46,290 nucleotides of DNA, taken from IMG/VR virus record IMGVR_UViG_3300046516_001159, positions 1-46,290 of that record. One strand, given 5' to 3'. The stretch is from a virus. Below the pieces are notes generated by a model. It saw only the letters and a list, made by a program, of their open reading frames with translations, did no database searches and had not been told where the DNA came from. Made by a program: the position numbers and the translations under genes. Of the stretch, positions 5,373 through 46,290 are shown piece by piece (the first letter of the stretch is position 1; every line of letters starts with the position of its first letter).

Positions 5373-5596
5373 TGCGCGGGCCTGCATCCGCCGTCGGCCA
5401 GGCCCTTGCTCGTCACCGCTTGCTTGCGGAAGGGACCCTTGGCGCGCAGCCCGAGCTCGGTCTCGATCAGGTCGCGGGTCTGGAGCATCTCCGCCAGCGA
5501 GCGGTACGTCACCCTCCGGTCCTCGTACTGAACCGACGACGCACCGGTGGCGATCGCGCGCTTCAGGTCATCTAGGTCCTTCGTGGTCCACGCCAT
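5369..5596 (-). CDS. gpW-like head-tail connector protein
   Basis: 75 residues, matching the small gpW family in size and in the pattern 'LDDLKRAIATGASSVQYEDRRVTYRSLAEML'. The two helices flank a beta-hairpin carrying 'VQYEDRRVTYRS', the hallmark of gpW. gpW binds under the portal and is needed to retain packaged DNA and attach the tail. The gene overlaps the end of the large terminase by 25 bases and shares an ATGA overlap with the portal start. This terminase-gpW-portal order is that of lambda. Confidence 0.9.
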   Translation of the reverse strand: MAWTTKDLDDLKRAIATGASSVQYEDRRVTYRSLAEMLQTRDLIETELGLRAKGPFRKQAVTSKGLADGGCRPAQ

Positions 5597-7518
5597 TTCC
5601 AGAACGACTCCCGTCGAGCAGGCGGCCGTGCGGTGGGTTGGTCCGCGCGCGGCTGCTCGGCCGGAGTTTGCACGGGCTCACTTCCCGGGGCAATCCCCAT
5701 GCTCTCCTCCATCGTGGCCCACGCGTCGTCGTCGTAGCGGTCGATGCCGAGCAGCGCGGCCGCCGCGCGCGCGTAGACGCGGCAGTCGAGTACTTCGTTC
5801 CGACGCCCGGCGCGCAGCTGCCATTGGGTCTTGCGGTAGCCGCGCACGATGTGCGTGACGAGCTCCTCGGCCGTGAGCTGGAGGAAGTACTCCTTGCCGT
5901 ATTCGGGGAAGTGGCACCAGCCCGCGGGGAACGGGTCGTTCTTCTCGAGCGGCGGCGGGAGCCGCAGCCGCGCGTACAGCTCGCTCTTGGCCGTGCCCAC
6001 GCCAACGGGCCACAGCCGGCATCCGCGCCGAGCTCGCCGCGCGCGCTGGGTCACGTCGACCTTCGTCGGAAGCCCGAGGATGGTGGGCATCGTGTCGAAG
6101 CCCTTGACCACCATCGTGCGATCGCTCGGGCGCAGTCGAGCCCAGTTGTAGACCTTCTGCGTGTTGTAGCCCGAGTCGACGGCCAGCATTCGGATCGGCA
6201 TCTCGACGCCCGATGCGCTCGGCCACGTGCGCTCGTACAGCGCGGTGAGCTGCTCCCACGTCGACTCCTCGTCGCTCGAGCCCTCCAGCACGATGTACTC
6301 GATCGACCACGACTCGAGCCCGCGGCCCCACGCCACGATCTCGACCTCGATCCGGTCGACCTGCACGTCGGCGCCGGCGGTGATGAGGATCCCGCCCTTG
6401 GGCACCGTGCCCATCTCGTAGCTCTCGCGTCGCGAGTAGATCCGCTCCCACTCGGGCGCGTCGCCGCGCTCGACCCACGTCTCGCCCAGCACGGTGTTGA
6501 TGAACGTGCGCAGCTCGTCGGGCTTGATGTACGGCGTGTGCGCAGACTCCCACGCGCGAACGGCGTCAGCCCAGCCGTACCATCCGAGCGGCGAGTAGAG
6601 CGCCGAGAGGTGGTAGCCGCGAATCGTCGGGTCGCACTCGCCGTGCGCTTCCCACACGCCGGCAGGCAGCATCGTCTCCTTGTGGCGCTCCTCGATCCCG
6701 CGCTGGCACTTCGCGCAGACGTAGACCACGCCGTCGGGAACGCCCTTCTTCCATTGCAGCCCGGTGCCCTCCTTCGACCAATGCAGCGGCTGGAAATGGC
6801 CGCAGTACGGGCATGGCACGTGGAAGTAGCGCTGGTCCGTGCCGTCGAACGCGCGTTTGATGCGCGAGCGGCCCTCGATCGTGGGCGTGGAGATCAGGCC
6901 AATCTTCGCGCGGTGGGCGAACGTGCGCGTGCGCGCTCGAGCGAGCTCGACGGGATCACCTTCGCCCTCGACGTCGCCCGGGTAGGCGTCGACCTCGTCG
7001 AGCATCAGGATCTTCACCGCCATCGAGCGCAGGCCTGCGGCGCTGTTCGCACCGGTGAGCACGAGCGGCCCGCCCGGGAAGTCCTTCGAGAACGTCGTGT
7101 TGCCAGAGTCGCGCGATCGCGGCGCGTGCACCTTGGCGCTGAGCCTCGGACACTCCGCAATCATCGGGTCGAGCTTCTGCTTCGAGTAGCGCCGCGCGAG
7201 CTCGACCGTGGGCTGAACGATCATCACCGGGCCCGGCGAGCGATCGATCACGTAGCCCAGCACGTTGTTGATGCCCTCCGTGCCTCCGATCTGCGCGCCC
7301 TTCATCAGCACCATGAACTCGACCGGCGATCGCGCCGAGAAACAGTCCATGATTTCGCGCATGTACGGCGTGCGGGACGTGCGCCATTGGCCGTGCTCGG
7401 CGTTCTTGCTGCTCACCTGGCGGTACTTATCCGCCCACTGCGAGACCGTCTCGTCCGTCTCCGGCCGCAGCCCTTCGAAGAACGAGCGTGCGTAGCTGCT
7501 GATCGCTTGCATCACCAT
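5572..7518 (-). CDS. Terminase large subunit, GpA family
   Basis: 648 residues. The ATPase domain carries a Walker A-like 'KGAQIGGTE' at about 73-81 and a Walker B 'MLDEVDAYP' at about 172-180. A zinc-binding pair follows: CPYCG near 236 and CAKC near 268, typical of GpA-type terminases. The nuclease domain has acidic candidates in 'TAGADVQVDRIEVE' (about 379-393) and 'AVDSGYNT' (about 446-453). The protein cuts concatemeric DNA and powers packaging through the portal. The small subunit is immediately upstream and gpW downstream. Lambda GpA cuts at cos sites, so cos packaging is plausible but not shown. Confidence 0.95.
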   Translation of the reverse strand: MVMQAISSYARSFFEGLRPETDETVSQWADKYRQVSSKNAEHGQWRTSRTPYMREIMDCFSARSPVEFMVLMKGAQIGGTEGINNVLGYVIDRSPGPVMIVQPTVELARRYSKQKLDPMIAECPRLSAKVHAPRSRDSGNTTFSKDFPGGPLVLTGANSAAGLRSMAVKILMLDEVDAYPGDVEGEGDPVELARARTRTFAHRAKIGLISTPTIEGRSRIKRAFDGTDQRYFHVPCPYCGHFQPLHWSKEGTGLQWKKGVPDGVVYVCAKCQRGIEERHKETMLPAGVWEAHGECDPTIRGYHLSALYSPLGWYGWADAVRAWESAHTPYIKPDELRTFINTVLGETWVERGDAPEWERIYSRRESYEMGTVPKGGILITAGADVQVDRIEVEIVAWGRGLESWSIEYIVLEGSSDEESTWEQLTALYERTWPSASGVEMPIRMLAVDSGYNTQKVYNWARLRPSDRTMVVKGFDTMPTILGLPTKVDVTQRARRARRGCRLWPVGVGTAKSELYARLRLPPPLEKNDPFPAGWCHFPEYGKEYFLQLTAEELVTHIVRGYRKTQWQLRAGRRNEVLDCRVYARAAAALLGIDRYDDDAWATMEESMGIAPGSEPVQTPAEQPRADQPTARPPARRESFWKWRGPRRT

Positions 7519-7568: not shown

Positions 7569-8153
7569 TTATTCGCCGTCGTCGAACCGGCCCTGCGTGG
7601 CGATCTTCTCGAGCGCCTGGGTGATCTCCTCGCGCAGCCGCTCCTCGATTGCGCGCGGCTTGCGCTCAGCCGCGAGCGCGGCCGCGATGCGAGGCGGAAT
7701 GGCGAGCAGCGCGTCGCGCACGCCGCGCGCGACCCTGAAGGCCTCCGCGTGCACGGCGTCGGCCTCGAGGAGGCGGCCAGCGTCGCGCTCATAGCGCATC
7801 TTCGCCTGCTGCGCGCCGTAGTACTCGCGCGACGTGCGCGCGGTGAGGAACGCCTGCGCCACGCCAGGCTGCACCACGGACTTGCCGTTGCCCGCGGAGT
7901 CCTTGAAGAGGTGCTGCTGCCCGGCGATCGGGTTCGGCGGCTGCATGCCCGGGTCGCGGCGCTGCCCGGGGTCGCTGTTCTTCTCCCACTCGACGTCCGC
8001 GAGCTCGGCGTCGATGCGCTTCTGCCCGCGCTCGTCTGCGGAGATGGATTCGGAGAGCCGGCCGGTGCGAATGGCCTTCTGAACCGCGGCGTGCGTGACG
8101 CCTCTGCGCTTTGCGTACGCGCGGATCCCGAGCAGGATCCGTTCTGCTGACAT
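7569..8153 (-). CDS. Terminase small subunit, Nu1-like
   Basis: 194 residues. The N-terminal 'GIRAYAKRRGVTHAAVQKAIRTGRL' is a winged-helix DNA-binding motif of the Nu1 type. The middle carries 'SREYYGAQQAKMRYERDAGRLLEADAV', the helix seen in many phage Nu1 homologues, and the C-terminal half is helical and would contact the large subunit. The small subunit binds the packaging start site and recruits the large subunit. It is 50 bases upstream of the large terminase gene and just downstream of the methyltransferase stop. Confidence 0.85.
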   Translation of the reverse strand: MSAERILLGIRAYAKRRGVTHAAVQKAIRTGRLSESISADERGQKRIDAELADVEWEKNSDPGQRRDPGMQPPNPIAGQQHLFKDSAGNGKSVVQPGVAQAFLTARTSREYYGAQQAKMRYERDAGRLLEADAVHAEAFRVARGVRDALLAIPPRIAAALAAERKPRAIEERLREEITQALEKIATQGRFDDGE

Positions 8154-8156
8154 GGG

Positions 8157-8972
8157 TTACTTGGTGCGGGTCTTCCCGACCTCAGCGAAGGTCGGCCCGA
8201 GCTGGCCCTTCTCGTCGACCAGGCGGGCTTCGTTCTTGGTGGCGTTCTGCCAGCGCACGACAGCGACGTCGACGAACGCGGGCGAGATCTCGATTGCGTA
8301 GCAGCGCCGGTGCAGCTCCTCGGCGGCCATGATCTGCGTGCCCGATCCGCTGAACGGCTCGAGGCAGATTTCGCCCGGCAGCGTGCTCCACTCCATCACG
8401 CGGCGGAAGAGCTCGACGGGCTTCTGCGTCGGGTGGATGCCATCCGATTGGCCCTTCTGATCGACCTGCCACACATTGCTCATGTTGCACGGCGGGCGGC
8501 GGCGTTTGGTGGGCATCTTGCCGACCGGCCAACCGTAGAAGCACGGCTCGAACTGGAACATGAAGTGGTTGCGCGTGAGCACCGCGCGCGCCTTCACCCA
8601 GATGATCGTCTGGTGCACGAGCAGCTCGTTGGCGAGCCAGCCCGCTTCGACCACGCCCTGCCGGCGCGACGCGTGCCATTGGTACACGGGCACGCGCTCG
8701 ACGCAGAACGGCAGAGCTTCCTTCAGGAAGACGGTGAAGAGCGAGTCCTCGACCGCCATCTCGTGGTAGTCGTCCCAGTGCTTGTCCTTGACGTCGGCCT
8801 TGTTCGCCCAGCTCTGCGGATGGTTGCCGCCCTGGTAGTTGACCTGATACGGCGGGTCCGTCTGAAGGAGCTGCGCCTTCTCCTTCCCGAGCAGGCGGCC
8901 GTACGTCTCGCCCTTGGTCGAGTCGCCGCAGATGATCCGATGCTCGCCGAGCGCCCACAGTACCCCCCCCCC
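8157..8972 (-). pseudogene. DNA methyltransferase half of a ParB-methylase fusion, out of frame
   Basis: This frame encodes an N4/N6-type DNA methyltransferase: 'LWALGEHRIICGDST' just after the G tract, the catalytic TDPPY at about 8858..8872, and the AdoMet-binding 'EPFSGSGT' near the C-terminus with 'HPTQKP' before it. The fold order (DPPY before FxGxG) is that of beta-class enzymes. No ATG, GTG or TTG opens this frame before 8759, which is already past the DPPY motif. A working enzyme therefore needs the upstream ParB-like half to be read into this frame. A tract of nine instead of ten G residues at 8963..8972 would do that. Phase variation, ribosomal slippage or a sequence error are all possible. 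Confidence 0.85.
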
Positions 8973-9492
8973 GTGTAACGGGATTGTTTGGCGGCTGCGG
9001 TGCGTCCTCGTCCTCCGTCGTTGACGCAGGTTCGGTGCTCTTCAAGAGTGCGCCGAGCTCCGCAGCCGTCCAGCCGATCGCGTCGAGATTGAACGCGGCC
9101 GTGCGCGAGAGCTCCTCGAGCTCGGTGCGCAGCATGTCCTCGTCCCACGTCGCGAGCTCTGCGAGTCTGTTGTCCGCGAGCCGGTACGCGTTCGCGCTCT
9201 GGTCGTCGAGGTGCTCGAGCGTGATCACGGGCACGGTCTTGATGCCCAACGACTTCGCAGCCTCGAGGCGGCCGTGGCCGGCGATGATGTCACCCGCCTT
9301 GGTGATCAGGATCGGCGCGTTGAACCCGAAGCGCGCGATCGATGCGGCGAGACGCTGCACCTGCTCTGCCGAGTGCAGCCGCGCGTTGCGCGCGTAGGGC
9401 TTCAGCGATTCGATCGCGCGCCGCTCGAGCGCGTGCTTCTCTTCGCCAGCGACGGGCTTCGGCGCGAGCTTCTTCGACTTGGTGGTAGCCAC
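8182..9492 (-). CDS. ParB-like N-terminal half of ParB-methyltransferase fusion (phase-OFF reading)
   Basis: The GTG at 9490..9492 directly follows the TAG of the upstream gene. Residues about 28-130 are a ParB/Srx-type domain: 'ESLKPYARNARLHSAEQVQRL', 'FGFNAPILITKAGDIIAGHGR' and 'AYRLADNRLAELATWDEDML'. At residue about 174 the reading frame enters the ten-G tract. In the present sequence it continues out of frame through low-complexity Arg/Ala-rich sequence to 8182. Only about 519 bases (8974..9492) are therefore meaningful coding. ParB-domain/DNA methylase fusions are common in phages and modify phage DNA against host restriction. The domain calls are clear; the reason for the frameshift is not. 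Confidence 0.8.
   Translation of the reverse strand: MATTKSKKLAPKPVAGEEKHALERRAIESLKPYARNARLHSAEQVQRLAASIARFGFNAPILITKAGDIIAGHGRLEAAKSLGIKTVPVITLEHLDDQSANAYRLADNRLAELATWDEDMLRTELEELSRTAAFNLDAIGWTAAELGALLKSTEPASTTEDEDAPQPPNNPVTRGGGTVGARRASDHLRRLDQGRDVRPPAREGEGAAPSDGPAVSGQLPGRQPSAELGEQGRRQGQALGRLPRDGGRGLALHRLPEGSSAVLRRARARVPMARVAPAGRGRSGLARQRAARAPDDHLGEGARGAHAQPLHVPVRAVLLRLAGRQDAHQTPPPAVQHEQCVAGRSEGPIGWHPPDAEARRALPPRDGVEHAAGRNLPRAVQRIGHADHGRRGAAPALLRNRDLARVRRRRCRALAERHQERSPPGRREGPARADLR
8963..8972 (-). repeat. Ten-G homopolymer tract inside the methyltransferase gene
   Basis: Ten C residues on the plus strand (ten G in the coding sense) lie exactly at the junction of the ParB-like and methyltransferase domains. 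Counting codons, 9 or 12 G residues would join the two halves, while 10 or 11 would not. Such tracts vary in length by slippage and switch genes on and off in many bacteria and some phages. Confidence 0.9.
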
Positions 9493-9933
9493 CTACTCGG
9501 GCCTGCCGAGAACCTGCGCGAACTGGCGCGACTCCGAGCCGTTGCGCTCGACCGTCATCGCCGTCCCGGCCGGGATGCCGTTCTGCTTGTCGTAGCCCGC
9601 CTTGAGCTCGACGAGCATGTCCTCGAGGTCGACCCAGGACGTTGCCTGGACCTCGATGATGATCCGTTTGGCCGGGAACCATTGCAGGACGTTGATCGCG
9701 GGCGCGATCGTGCCGCATCCCACGGCGTCCATGGGGCTTGCGCTCGCCTCGGCGGGCGCGCTGGCGGCCGCTCCGCTGGCATGCACGACCATCGGGCCCG
9801 CGTGCTCTGCATCGAGCTCCGCGTCGAGATCCTCGGGCTCGGGCAGGGCGGTCGTCTCGTCGAGCGGAAGGGCGGGCGCGTCGGCGACCTCGTCCGACCC
9901 GGATGCACCTGAATCGTCCTGTTCGTTCCTCAT
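9493..9933 (-). CDS. Acidic hypothetical protein
   Basis: 146 residues from the ATG at 9931..9933. The N-terminal 70 residues are acidic and Ala/Pro-rich ('ALPEPEDLDAELDAEHAG') and probably disordered. The C-terminal 75 residues look folded, with 'ITPAINVLQWFPAKRIIIEVQ'-like strand segments and 'WVDLEDMLVELKAGYDKQNGIPAG'. I do not recognise a family. Its stop abuts the GTG of the ParB-methyltransferase gene, so the two are probably co-transcribed. A 15-base palindrome and a C9 tract lie upstream. Confidence 0.65.
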   Translation of the reverse strand: MRNEQDDSGASGSDEVADAPALPLDETTALPEPEDLDAELDAEHAGPMVVHASGAAASAPAEASASPMDAVGCGTIAPAINVLQWFPAKRIIIEVQATSWVDLEDMLVELKAGYDKQNGIPAGTAMTVERNGSESRQFAQVLGRPE

Positions 9934-10064: not shown

Positions 10065-10073
10065 CCCCCCCCC
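10065..10073. repeat. Nine-C homopolymer tract in intergenic region
   Basis: A run of nine C residues lies in the 199-base gap (9934..10132) between the Clp-N protein and the acidic protein. This and the tract at 8963..8972 are the only runs of nine or more I see in the window, and both belong to the same minus-strand gene group. Length change here could alter promoter spacing. The rest of the gap holds the palindromes noted separately and no gene. Confidence 0.7.
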
Positions 10074-10132: not shown

Positions 10133-10621
10133 CTACGCGGGCTGTGCGAGCCGTTCCAACGTGTGCGCGCGCAGCGCGTCAGGGCGGATGCCGAGCAGCA
10201 CGGCCATCTGCACCGCGAGGCATTGATCGTCCTCGAGCAGGGCCAACACGAGGTGGTCAGGCTGCACCATCTCGTGCCCGAGCTCGTGCGCGACGCGATG
10301 CGAAGCACGCAGCGCACGCTCACCACGTTCGCTGGGTGGCAAGTAGGGCAGCTCCTTCGGATGTGCGTCGGCCAGCGGTGCACGCGTGCTGCGGATCAGC
10401 GTACGCATTGCAGGCAACACCTTGAGGATTGGCACTGGGGTGTTGGCCAGCGCGAGCTGCTCTTCTCCGAACCATGTGACCAGCAGGCCCGTCAGCATGT
10501 CCTGCGTGCCCACGTGGCTATGGCCTTCGCGCAAGGCGATCTCGTGTGCGTTGTGCAGGGCTTCGATCAGCTGCGGAGACTGGCGCTTGGCGAATGCTTC
10601 GGGCGGGGGTTGGGTGCTCAT
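10133..10621 (-). CDS. Stand-alone Clp N-domain protein
   Basis: 162 residues. Two Clp_N-type repeats are visible. The first is 'AHEIALREGHSHVGTQDMLTGLL' (about 24-48). The second is 'ASHRVAHELGHEMVQPDHLVLALLED' (about 105-132). Both show the A...A...lGH..v...HLL.gLL pattern of the ClpC/ClpA N-terminal domain. There is no AAA+ ATPase module and the gene ends cleanly after the second repeat. In bacteria this domain binds adaptors and substrates for Clp proteolysis, so a free phage copy could act as a decoy or adaptor for the host protease; that is inference. It starts 37 bases below a strong minus-strand terminator. Confidence 0.8.
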   Translation of the reverse strand: MSTQPPPEAFAKRQSPQLIEALHNAHEIALREGHSHVGTQDMLTGLLVTWFGEEQLALANTPVPILKVLPAMRTLIRSTRAPLADAHPKELPYLPPSERGERALRASHRVAHELGHEMVQPDHLVLALLEDDQCLAVQMAVLLGIRPDALRAHTLERLAQPA

Positions 10622-24081: not shown

Positions 24082-26093
24082 TGCGCCTCCCGCTCGATCC
24101 TGACCACCAAGAGATCAAACCAGGCGACGCGCTCTACTGGGACCCGGAGCGCGGCGTCTGCACTACCACATGGGTCCCGCACTGCACCAAGGTCGAGGTG
24201 CTCGCCGCACAAGAGCCCTCACAAACGGTCGTCCGCACACGACCAGGAGAACGAATGGCACGCCCGAAATCCGCACGCACTGTCACCCACGAACGAACGC
24301 CCGAAGCCGACGAGAATGGCCGCCACGTCGGCGCGCCCATGAACGGCGCCGTCGCTGTCGAAGATGAGCCGCACGAGCAACGCCCGGTACCGGTCGCTCC
24401 GCCCGTGCCCGACATCCGCAACATCGCGCCCGGTCTGCTCAACCCGTCGCCCACGAACCCGCGGCGCGCGGCTGGCGACCTGCGCGAGCTCGCAGAGTCG
24501 ATCCGCACCAAGGGCATCCTCCAGCCGCTGCTCGTGCGGCCCGTCGGCGACGCCGGGAACCAGCCAGGTAAGAAGCACTACACGCACGAGATCGTGTTCG
24601 GTCACCGCCGGTACCTGGCGGCGATCGACGTCGGGCTGCAGTCGGTGCCGTGCATGGTGCGCGACATGAACGAGCTCGAAGTACTCGAGGCGCAGATCAT
24701 CGAGAACGTCCAGCGGCTCGACGTGCATCCCATGGACGAGGCGGAGGGCTACGAGCGGCTGATGGCCCTCGGCCGCACAGTCGAGGAGATCGTGGCGCAC
24801 ACAGGCAAGAGCAAGGCGACGATCTACGCGCGGCTCAAGCTGCTCGACCTCTGTAAGAAGGCCCGCGACCTGTTCCTCGAGGGAAAGATCGAGGCCTCAC
24901 ACGCGCTGCTCGCAGCGCGCATTCCGGGCGAGGCGCTGCAGCGCGAATTCCTGAAGGAGATCGGGGTGTGGGGCGAGCGCGGCGTGGTCTCGTTCCGCGA
25001 GGCTCGCGAGATCGCGCATCGCGACTTCATGCTGCGGCTGTCCGAGGCGTCCTTCGACGTCAACGACGCAGAGCTCGTGCCCAAGGCAGGAGCGTGCCAG
25101 ACGTGCCCGAAGCGCACGGGCAACCAGCCGGCGCTCTTCGCGGACGTGAAGGGCGCGGACACGTGCACGGATCCGGCGTGCTTCAAGTCCAAGACGGACG
25201 CGCGGTGGGAGCAGCGCGCGGCCGAGCACAAGGCTGCCGGCGGCGCGGTGCTCTCGAAGAGCGAGACAGCCAAGGTGCTGCCCTACGCGAACGCGGATGC
25301 CACGGCGCAAGGCAGCGGCTACGCGGCGCTCGCCAAGCAGAACTACCAGGACCCGAAGTTTCGCACCAACGGGCAGCTGCTCGGCAAGGCCAAGAAGGAC
25401 GTCCAGATCACGCTCGCACGCACCAAGGACGGGCACGTGGTCGAGCTCGTCGACGAGAAGATCCTGAACAAGAAGCTGCGCGAGCTCGGCGTGATCAAGC
25501 CCAAGCCGAAGCAGCGCTCGAGCGGCGCCAAGAAGAAGAACGCGGCGAAGGACGGTGTCAACGAAGACGAGCTCATGCGCGCCACGATGAAGCAGGCAGG
25601 CAACCTCGTTGCGCTCTCCGGCTTGCCCGAGGCCATCACTCGCACGCCGAGCTTCCAGATCTTCGGGCGTGGCCTGCTCGCGATCGCGCTCGAGGTCATC
25701 GGCCCGTTCTCGCCAGCGGTCGACGACACGATGGAGTCGGTCTTCGGCGTCGTGGCTGACCAGACCGAGCCCGGCACGAAGAAGAAACGGCGCGTGGGCA
25801 CGCGCGCGGACACACGCATCGTTCTCCAGCAAGCGGTCGACGAGAGCCCGCATCTCGCGACCGTCGCTGCCGTGCAGCTCATGCTCCGACACCTGGCAGA
25901 CGATCTGAGCTACTCGCACAAGCCCGGAGAGATCGGCAAGGAAGCGGTCGCGATCTTCAAGCCGTGGGATGTCGACCTCGTCGCGCTGCGCGAGATCCAG
26001 CGCAAGGAGATGAAGGCCAAGCTCGACGCGACGGCCGAGACCAAGCCCGCCAAGGAGAAGAAGGGCAAGCGCTCGAAGGCGAAGAAGCAGTGA
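24081..26093 (+). CDS. Large ParB-like partition/nuclease-domain protein
   Basis: 670 residues from the ATG at 24081. A second start at 24255 with a strong AGGAG six bases upstream would give 612 residues and removes an unrelated N-terminal segment. The ParB N-domain covers about 110-210: 'NPRRAAGDLRELAESIRTKG', 'VFGHRRYLAAIDVGL' and 'EAQIIENVQRLDVHPMDEAEG'. The HTH follows with 'EEIVAHTGKSKATIYARLKLL'. A Cys cluster 'CQTCPKRTGNQPALFAD..CTDPACF' comes next, and the C-terminus is very Lys-rich. Such ParB proteins occur in plasmids and phages. There is no ParA, so it may act in gene control, DNA processing or plasmid-like maintenance. Confidence 0.85.
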   Translation: MRLPLDPDHQEIKPGDALYWDPERGVCTTTWVPHCTKVEVLAAQEPSQTVVRTRPGERMARPKSARTVTHERTPEADENGRHVGAPMNGAVAVEDEPHEQRPVPVAPPVPDIRNIAPGLLNPSPTNPRRAAGDLRELAESIRTKGILQPLLVRPVGDAGNQPGKKHYTHEIVFGHRRYLAAIDVGLQSVPCMVRDMNELEVLEAQIIENVQRLDVHPMDEAEGYERLMALGRTVEEIVAHTGKSKATIYARLKLLDLCKKARDLFLEGKIEASHALLAARIPGEALQREFLKEIGVWGERGVVSFREAREIAHRDFMLRLSEASFDVNDAELVPKAGACQTCPKRTGNQPALFADVKGADTCTDPACFKSKTDARWEQRAAEHKAAGGAVLSKSETAKVLPYANADATAQGSGYAALAKQNYQDPKFRTNGQLLGKAKKDVQITLARTKDGHVVELVDEKILNKKLRELGVIKPKPKQRSSGAKKKNAAKDGVNEDELMRATMKQAGNLVALSGLPEAITRTPSFQIFGRGLLAIALEVIGPFSPAVDDTMESVFGVVADQTEPGTKKKRRVGTRADTRIVLQQAVDESPHLATVAAVQLMLRHLADDLSYSHKPGEIGKEAVAIFKPWDVDLVALREIQRKEMKAKLDATAETKPAKEKKGKRSKAKKQ

Positions 26094-44753: not shown

Positions 44754-46223
44754 TCAGGAGAATTGCAGCTCGGCCGCGAGGACGCCCAGACCGTTCACGA
44801 GCTTCGGCGTGATGATGATGTCGAGCCGCGAGCGGTCGAGCGCGTTGATGTGCGCGTCGAGGTTGGATTGGAAGTCGGCGGCGTCCTCGACCCAGCCGTT
44901 GCGCTCCCAAATGCGCCAGAGCGCCATCATCTCGCCCTTGGCGATGTTGGGGGTGATGATCGACTGGCCCGATCCGACACGCGTCGCGTCCTCCATCAGC
45001 TTCGAGCGCGAGTACTTCGAGAAGTACACGCGGAAGTCGTAGCGCAGCCGGTCTGTCAGCAGCGGCTTCGTGGCGTCGAAGAAGGACGGATCCGCGACTC
45101 CGCTCGTGTTCGTCTTGTACGTCGTGATCGCGCGCAGGATGCGTTGCACGCCGCCGTTGTCGGTCGAGGTGACGGACACGCCGGCGAGCAGCAGCGCGTT
45201 CATCTGCGCGACCGTGAAGCGGTCCTGCGTGAGCGGCGGCAGCGTGCCGAGCAGCGGCAGGTCCTTGAAGGGCAGCGCCGGGTCGCCCTCGGCGGACGCG
45301 GCCATTTGGATGGCCGCGCTCGCGGCCTTCTCCCACGTCGGCATGGGCTCGGCCGCGTTGGTGTAGAGGACCACGTGCGCGGAATTGCGCGACTGCCCGA
45401 GCGCGAGCACGTTCGCGTAGGCGGAGCCGCCGCCGGCGATGCCGCTCGCGCAGGTGATGCCGAGGCCCGCGTTGTTGCGGATCGGCCCGAAGCGGTCCTG
45501 GAGCTCGGCTTCGAGGGCCGTGAGGTTGGTCGCGTCGGTCACCGGTGCGCAGATCACGTTGTACTGCGTGTCGGAGAGCTTCGCCCACGCGTTCGCGAGG
45601 ACGATGTCGCCCGCACCGTTGGCCATGGCGGAGATGGCGACTGCCAAGCCCGTGGGGATGGTCTCGCCCACGTTGTAGCTGTGGCGGAGGTCGATCTCGT
45701 TGCCGATCGTGCCCGCGTTCTTCGCAGTGATCGTGACCGTGCCGGCGTTGGCGGTCGCGTTCGCCGGCGCGCTCGAGTCAGCCTGCACGAGGTTGACCAG
45801 CGCGGACGCGACGGAGGTCGGCGTCGACGCCGTCGAGACCGTCACCGGATAGCGACGCCCAGCCACGTAGAACGCGAGCGTTCCGCTGGCAGTCGGCGTG
45901 CCCGTGAGGGTGTACGTTCCCGTGGCTTGGATCGCGCCGCCCGGATCCGCGAAGGGGAATGCCCACGTCTCGAGGAACTGATCGGAGTTGAAGACGATCG
46001 CGGCCATCGCGGCGAGCTCGGAGCCAGCGCCAAAGGCGGCGATCGCTTCGGCGAGCGTGGTGAGCCGCACCGGGATCATCGCCGCGGCCGCGCCCGTGAC
46101 GAGCTTCTGCCCGATCAGGAGGAGCTTGAAGGGTTGCAGCCCGAGCGTGCCTTGCGCCGCGTCGATCTGAACCAGAACGAGCGGGACGCGGATGTTGGCG
46201 GGGATCAAAGAGAAGGCGGTCAC
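44754..46223 (-). CDS. Tail sheath protein (Mu gpL-like)
   Basis: 489 residues from the GTG at 46221..46223. 'FSLIPANIRVPLVLVQIDAA' is the typical sheath N-terminus of Mu-like phages. 'GERTYTLTGTPTASGTLAFY'-type Ig strands, 'AYANVLALGQSRNSAHVVLYT' and the C-terminal 'RLRYDFRVYFSKYSRSKLM' with 'IITPNIAKGEMMALWRIWER' confirm the family. It forms the contractile outer tube. Its 5' end is repeated at 1..60. Confidence 0.95.
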   Translation of the reverse strand: MTAFSLIPANIRVPLVLVQIDAAQGTLGLQPFKLLLIGQKLVTGAAAAMIPVRLTTLAEAIAAFGAGSELAAMAAIVFNSDQFLETWAFPFADPGGAIQATGTYTLTGTPTASGTLAFYVAGRRYPVTVSTASTPTSVASALVNLVQADSSAPANATANAGTVTITAKNAGTIGNEIDLRHSYNVGETIPTGLAVAISAMANGAGDIVLANAWAKLSDTQYNVICAPVTDATNLTALEAELQDRFGPIRNNAGLGITCASGIAGGGSAYANVLALGQSRNSAHVVLYTNAAEPMPTWEKAASAAIQMAASAEGDPALPFKDLPLLGTLPPLTQDRFTVAQMNALLLAGVSVTSTDNGGVQRILRAITTYKTNTSGVADPSFFDATKPLLTDRLRYDFRVYFSKYSRSKLMEDATRVGSGQSIITPNIAKGEMMALWRIWERNGWVEDAADFQSNLDAHINALDRSRLDIIITPKLVNGLGVLAAELQFS

Positions 46224-46290
46224 GTGTGGGCTCCCTTAGGTGAGTGCGATCGGCAGCTCGGTTCGAGGTCCTTGATCGCCAGTGTTGATA
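46164..46290. repeat. Terminal direct repeat, right copy
   Basis: Identical to 1..127. The copy spans the sheath start and the following gene's C-terminus. See the left copy for interpretation. Confidence 0.95.
46236..46290 (-). CDS. Tail terminator-like protein, C-terminal fragment (edge copy)
   Basis: The last codons and stop of the gene at 73..639, duplicated by the end overlap and cut by the right edge. Confidence 0.85.
   Translation of the reverse strand, partial: INTGDQGPRTELPIALT

Follow-up and report, generated by a model that had tools for sequence, protein, structure and literature searches.

A tract of ten guanines was found to join a ParB-like domain to a beta-class DNA methyltransferase in a phage genome, and this tract is probably a mutational on/off switch of the methyltransferase rather than a plain defect. 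The window, i.e., the whole stretch of DNA that was analyzed, consists of 46,290 nucleotides of the IMG/VR record IMGVR_UViG_3300046516_001159. Comparison of related sequences suggests that phase variation is well supported across the phage ParB-methyltransferase class, and for the phage of the window it is considered probable by analogy to these relatives. The explanation as a whole, in which a ParB-methyltransferase fusion is switched by a slipped-strand G tract and the record represents the off state, is one that we favor and rate as fairly likely to be correct.

Architecture of the ParB-methyltransferase junction

The tract reads C10 on the plus strand (8963-8972) and G10 on the coding strand. 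The ParB frame starts with GTG at 9492 and the methyltransferase frame ends at the stop at 8157, both on the minus strand. The two frames join exactly at the ten G residues, as had been claimed in the earlier note, and one base is surplus to a single frame: from V172 of ParB to residue 2 of the enzyme fragment, 10 bases are present in the window compared to 9 in L003, L005, L008, L021 and L022. By profile search, phrog_498 matched ParB residues 20-176 with its positions 33-193 and the enzyme half with its positions 193 to 443, and a single phrog_498 match (20-441, 403 bits, E 3.9e-120) was obtained when one four-base step was made at the tract. The one-base offset and the continuity of phrog_498 indicate that both halves are one gene. 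Third-position GC (GC3) was high in the respective frame on each side and switched frame around the tract; with GC3 strong in both halves and the catalytic motifs complete, no gene decay is visible.

The domain order was that of the fusion family, with PF02195 (ParB_N) at E 4.9e-7 and PF01555 (N6_N4 methylase) at E 2.9e-19. The single continuous frame of the phrog_498 family was absent, and the window thus holds an out-of-frame copy of this family and not an intact member. Within the ParB motif, G72 was invariant and R75 nearly invariant across 40 sequences. The enzyme was assigned to the beta class based on DPPY preceding FxGxG, a complete set of motifs and a fold that matches CcrM and M1.HpyAVI, and the predicted methyltransferase product is probably of the N6-adenine type. 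Structure prediction gave the expected domains and placed the tract in an ordered stretch rather than in the flexible linker at residues 153-160, with residues 171-180 predicted to be ordered at a mean pLDDT of 98.

The gene resembles phase-variable genes based on simple sequence repeats (SSR) in that a long mononucleotide tract lies within the frame and its length sets the frame. Tract lengths of G9 and G12 were found to give products of 444 and 445 amino acids with TDPPY, and lengths of G10 and G11 gave products of 436 and 256 amino acids without this motif. Thus, the earlier prediction that 9 or 12 G restore one protein and that 10 or 11 do not was confirmed. Likewise, the enzyme frame was found to have no ATG, GTG or TTG 5' of TDPPY, as had been stated, with only CTG and ATC codons present there; its first ATG (at 8759) lies after the motif.

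Table 1. Coordinates of features at the junction and in its surroundings within the window.
Feature	Position	Strand	Basis
G10 tract at the ParB/methyltransferase junction	8963..8972	-	sequence
ORF of the ParB frame at G10 (436 aa), with the ParB domain at residues ~20-173 and out-of-frame sequence past the tract	8182..9492	-	ORF and profile matches
ParB motif GHGR, residues 72-75	9268..9279	-	conserved columns
Beta-class N6/N4 DNA methyltransferase frame, open to stop 8157	8157..8962	-	PF01555, E 2.9e-19
Catalytic motif TDPPY	8847..8861	-	conserved columns
HPTQKP motif	8418..8435	-	conserved columns
SAM-binding motif FSGSGT	8337..8354	-	conserved columns
First standard start (ATG) in the enzyme frame, 3' of TDPPY	8757..8759	-	codon scan
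G9, the other long G tract, in the gap flanked by predicted genes 9493-9933 and 10133-10621	10065..10073	-	sequence
Terminase small subunit, directly downstream of the methyltransferase	7569..8153	-	homology
Terminase large subunit (TerL)	5572..7518	-	homology

Rarity of the tract and genomic setting

Markov models of the window gave an expectation of 0-0.22 G/C runs of at least 10 per 46 kb, and related viral DNA (698 kb) contained no such run. Apart from the G10 tract, a single G/C run of at least 7 is present in the window, namely C9 on the plus strand, 1.1 kb from the first tract (Table 1); by Markov models, runs of 9 or more are expected 0-0.7 times per window.

The nearest GenBank phages by TerL were Wolbachia phage WO and Rhodobacter phage RcKemmy (approximately 48-51%). 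The syntenic RcKemmy has, upstream of its terminase genes, a ParB of 233 aa that stands alone (41% identity over 133 residues); the off form of the window may thus still supply ParB. No cognate restriction gene was found to adjoin the methyltransferase; of the neighboring genes, one encodes the terminase small subunit and the other two lack restriction domains. A small protein encoded two genes upstream of the ParB-methyltransferase (10133-10621, minus strand) matched Clp_N (E 8.7e-10). The opposite strand encodes another ParB protein (24339-26093, plus strand), in which ParB_N and HTH_ParB domains are present.

Relatives not selected for a tract

The comparison set comprised 91 family members in IMG/VR, 83 of which had the junction motif. 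Among these 83, G runs reached 5 at most in the stretch inspected, which comprised the Trp codon, the codon that follows it and the 30 preceding bases. A single frame was kept in 78 of the 80 relatives having both halves; the two frame-split members were L162, with a frameshift in the linker, and L004. In L004 (900-3100), ParB and methyltransferase lie in different frames, the enzyme frame has its own zinc-ribbon-like start with CxxC pairs where the two meet, and the methyltransferase is followed by another, incomplete copy. The nearest relatives of the window (L003 and L149) were free of the tract, as were nine annotated GenBank phages with a related fusion gene. When an exact-flank pattern was used, no other record of the window phage was detected; the matches were chance-like and confined to short contigs, and the one inspected was unrelated.

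Asp was found two residues before the conserved Trp in 83 of 89 relatives, the rest having N, Q or E. Val, which the G9 form of the window has at this position, was found in none. Given this D-to-V change in a stretch that is predicted to be ordered, the G9 on form may not be fully active.

Tract-bearing relatives

IMG/VR was searched for G8 or more within 33 bases of CGDxT. By this looser pattern 31 contigs were recovered, 24 of which were methyltransferases with DPPY and a tract of G8-G11 at the ParB junction. These tract-bearers (including L234, L236/L239/L255 and L243/L245/L259) share with the window the gene family, the junction, the range of tract lengths and the occurrence in and out of frame; they differ in belonging to other phage lineages and, for the most part, in having the tract a few codons later (LGG-HRL compared to GD-LW in the window). 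A strict pattern (G8 then TGG..WxLGxxH) had detected no tract-bearer in IMG/VR (none in 84,980 genomes), a result that was at first taken against phase variation and then withdrawn for IMG/VR, as the strict pattern covered one codon context only and the looser one found 24. Thus, the same tract, which the earlier note had proposed to seek in related phages, is missing from close kin (L003 and L149) but present in the wider gene family.

An upstream ParB match was detected in 23 of the 24 tract-bearers (L259 is cut short upstream), with 10 in frame and 13 out of frame. This out-of-frame share (13/23) was compared to that of the relatives not chosen for a tract (2/80) and found to differ (Fisher p 9e-9). 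An off copy was present in 11 of 15 sequence clusters of tract-bearers, as grouped by the analyst (p 1e-9). The argument rests on these frame states and on length differences rather than on the count of tracts. All off copies were found to keep a long open enzyme frame past the tract (172-284 codons to the stop or contig end). In most off copies of other phages, a start codon follows the tract and precedes DPPY, and a shortened enzyme could possibly be made from it; the window has no such codon. One base too many, rather than two, was found in 12 of 14 off copies, the window included. This bias could reflect the G8 threshold, below which any G7 on-forms would fall, mutational bias or recoding.

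It is unlikely that the record represents a one-off loss of function, in which one-base slippage occurred in a chance G run, the methyltransferase is defunct or drifting without selected switching, and ParB alone may suffice. A G run that arose by chance in a dispensable gene and then slipped would give a similar picture, and the tract-free nearest relatives, the lone ParB upstream of the RcKemmy terminase and the D-to-V change in the G9 form agree with such a loss, as do broken family members such as L162 and the met2 gene of the wAu prophage, which is frameshifted by 2 bp (PMC3089641). By contrast, motifs and frame are intact on both sides of the tract, the tract site recurs in several lineages, and the enzyme frames of the off copies remain open, all of which argue against such a loss.

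Length differences between near-identical DNAs

Contigs L236 (G10, off) and L255 (G9, on) were found to be identical over 5,896 bp save for the tract base. When L239 was compared to L255, 16 mismatches were detected over 6,469 bases with the tract as the sole indel. Similarly, L243, L245 and L259 carried G10, G9 and G8, respectively, and the tract was the sole indel in each comparison. The compared contigs stem from different metagenome records, and A or T homopolymers of 7-8 in the same stretches were without differences among the compared pairs. Tract-length differences were thus seen in two other phages, the tract of the window being known from one assembled copy. Taken together, the length differences and the out-of-frame share are the expected sign of slipped-strand phase variation. 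The suggestion in the earlier note of a phase-variable phage modification gene is strengthened by the recurrence of the tract, the frequency of off copies and the varying lengths in other phages, but weakened by nearest kin that are free of the tract.

It appears improbable that the phage really has G9 and an intact gene, with the tenth G introduced in error at assembly or base calling. Long G runs are error-prone sites, and a single assembled copy spans the tract. The window, however, has an exact direct end repeat of 127 bp (1-127 and 46164-46290), and a contig from sample 3300049445 (L231), which stops short of the tract, is identical over both window ends and joins them. From these ends we infer a short-read graph assembly with k=127 that closed into a circle of 46,163 bp, which makes a base-calling error less likely. 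In addition, the TerL, portal, head, sheath and tape-measure genes of the window are unbroken reading frames, and related pairs differ at the G tract and not at the A/T runs.

Even less credible is that G10 is the working length and that a minor fusion, beside ParB alone, results from a ribosomal shift of +1 or -2 or from slippage in transcription. The tail genes of phage Mu are known to use a -2 shift at a G run, and 12 of the 14 off copies would all need one and the same shift (a bias that the G8 threshold could itself cause). However, no stimulatory RNA structure was found 3' of the tract, the post-tract RNA folding no better than shuffled sequence (z 0.07); furthermore, tract length varies between otherwise identical DNAs, in-frame copies exist, and the zero frame of the window is without a stop near the tract.

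Origins of the tract

When a quick ML tree was built from the enzyme domain, the tract-bearing rows formed 9 clades and at least 5 changes were forced by well-supported branches, numbers to be taken as approximate for the count of origins as the tree has long branches and rows picked by tract. The window grouped with the tract-free L003 and L149 in a lineage separate from the other tract-bearers. The tract thus appears to have arisen several times. As a control, coding G/C runs of at least 8 elsewhere in the viral DNA examined were inspected, and all five clear cases were in frame; this control is small and was classified by eye from open-frame lengths. A broader proposition, to which we give even odds, is that poly-G switches at the ParB-methyltransferase junction evolved repeatedly and that many phages keep their own phase-variable methylation, some with a second tract in a neighboring Dam-type gene.

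Other features of the tract-bearing contigs were observed. A second G tract is present in L252 (position 2145, G12) and L264 (position 3295, G9). In each contig it follows the junction tract by 952 bases and lies just before CNPPYG in a neighboring gene that resembles a phage Dam-type methyltransferase; the two contigs are 95% identical around the first tract. More G tracts occur in methyltransferase-like sequence of putative families in L254 (8672, C8) and L245 (4233, C9), and the frame of L254 appears to change at the C8 tract. In L243 (11692-12939), together with L245 and L259, most in-frame TGA codons were found to coincide with conserved glycines, of which one is invariant. In these three contigs TGA probably encodes Gly, as it does in Absconditabacteria/Gracilibacteria (code 25), and this gives a hint as to the hosts of these phages.

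Proposed mechanism and implications

In the model that we favor, the gene encodes a ParB N-terminal domain fused to a beta-class DNA methyltransferase and is positioned just upstream of the terminase genes. The G tract that joins the two parts would gain or lose bases by slipped-strand mispairing at replication. With 9 or 12 G the fusion would be made, and the DNA of the phage, and possibly of its host, would be methylated. With 10 or 11 G the enzyme frame would be left, with a ParB domain and a nonsense tail produced but no working methyltransferase; the assembled record would have caught this off state. Modified and unmodified genomes would then coexist in a mixed phage population, and the benefit may be bet-hedging, either against restriction by the host or against hosts by which methylated DNA is attacked. 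The architecture, the single extra base, the lack of a start codon and the tract-length changes in ParB-methyltransferases of other phages were observed directly, and the switching in the window phage, the enzyme activity and the benefit are inferred.

If this model is correct, a phage clone would always hold both modified and unmodified genomes, a virus-side form of bet-hedging in restriction-modification. Phage DNA methylation is usually seen as a fixed counter to host restriction, and random switching by a G tract would alter this view. The contigs listed here make the phase-variation reading testable at once.

Comparison to known systems

Bacteria are well known to have phase-variable methyltransferases. 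In the open-access literature, to which the search was confined, none was found to be phage-borne.

The bacterial enzymes, which include type III Mod, the type IIG enzyme of C. jejuni (PMC4889913) and phasevarions, are similar to the window in that an in-frame simple repeat toggles methylation. They are, however, chromosomal restriction-modification genes, whereas the gene of the window belongs to a phage, is fused to ParB and adjoins the terminase genes, and a restriction gene was not found next to it.

Fusions of a ParB-like N-terminal domain to an adenine methylase have been described, in passages of PMC3089641 and PMC5512222, for met1/met2 of Wolbachia prophages and BCE_0392 of B. cereus, respectively. 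These are ParB-methylase fusions like that of the window, and frameshifted copies occur in Wolbachia. The frameshift of wAu met2 is a 2-bp GC deletion, and a homopolymer switch was not found in these passages.

Poly-G phase variation has been published for receptor-binding proteins of Campylobacter phages (Sorensen et al. 2021, as cited in PMC11868660). Thus, the statement of the earlier note that phase-variable restriction and methylation genes are rarely described in phage genomes calls for a qualification, as a phage poly-G switch in another kind of gene is already in print. The Campylobacter phage system is similar to the window in that a hypermutable G tract in a phage gene switches the frame. 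It differs in that a receptor-binding protein is affected and switching was demonstrated by experiment, whereas in the window the gene encodes a DNA methyltransferase and switching is deduced from sequence.
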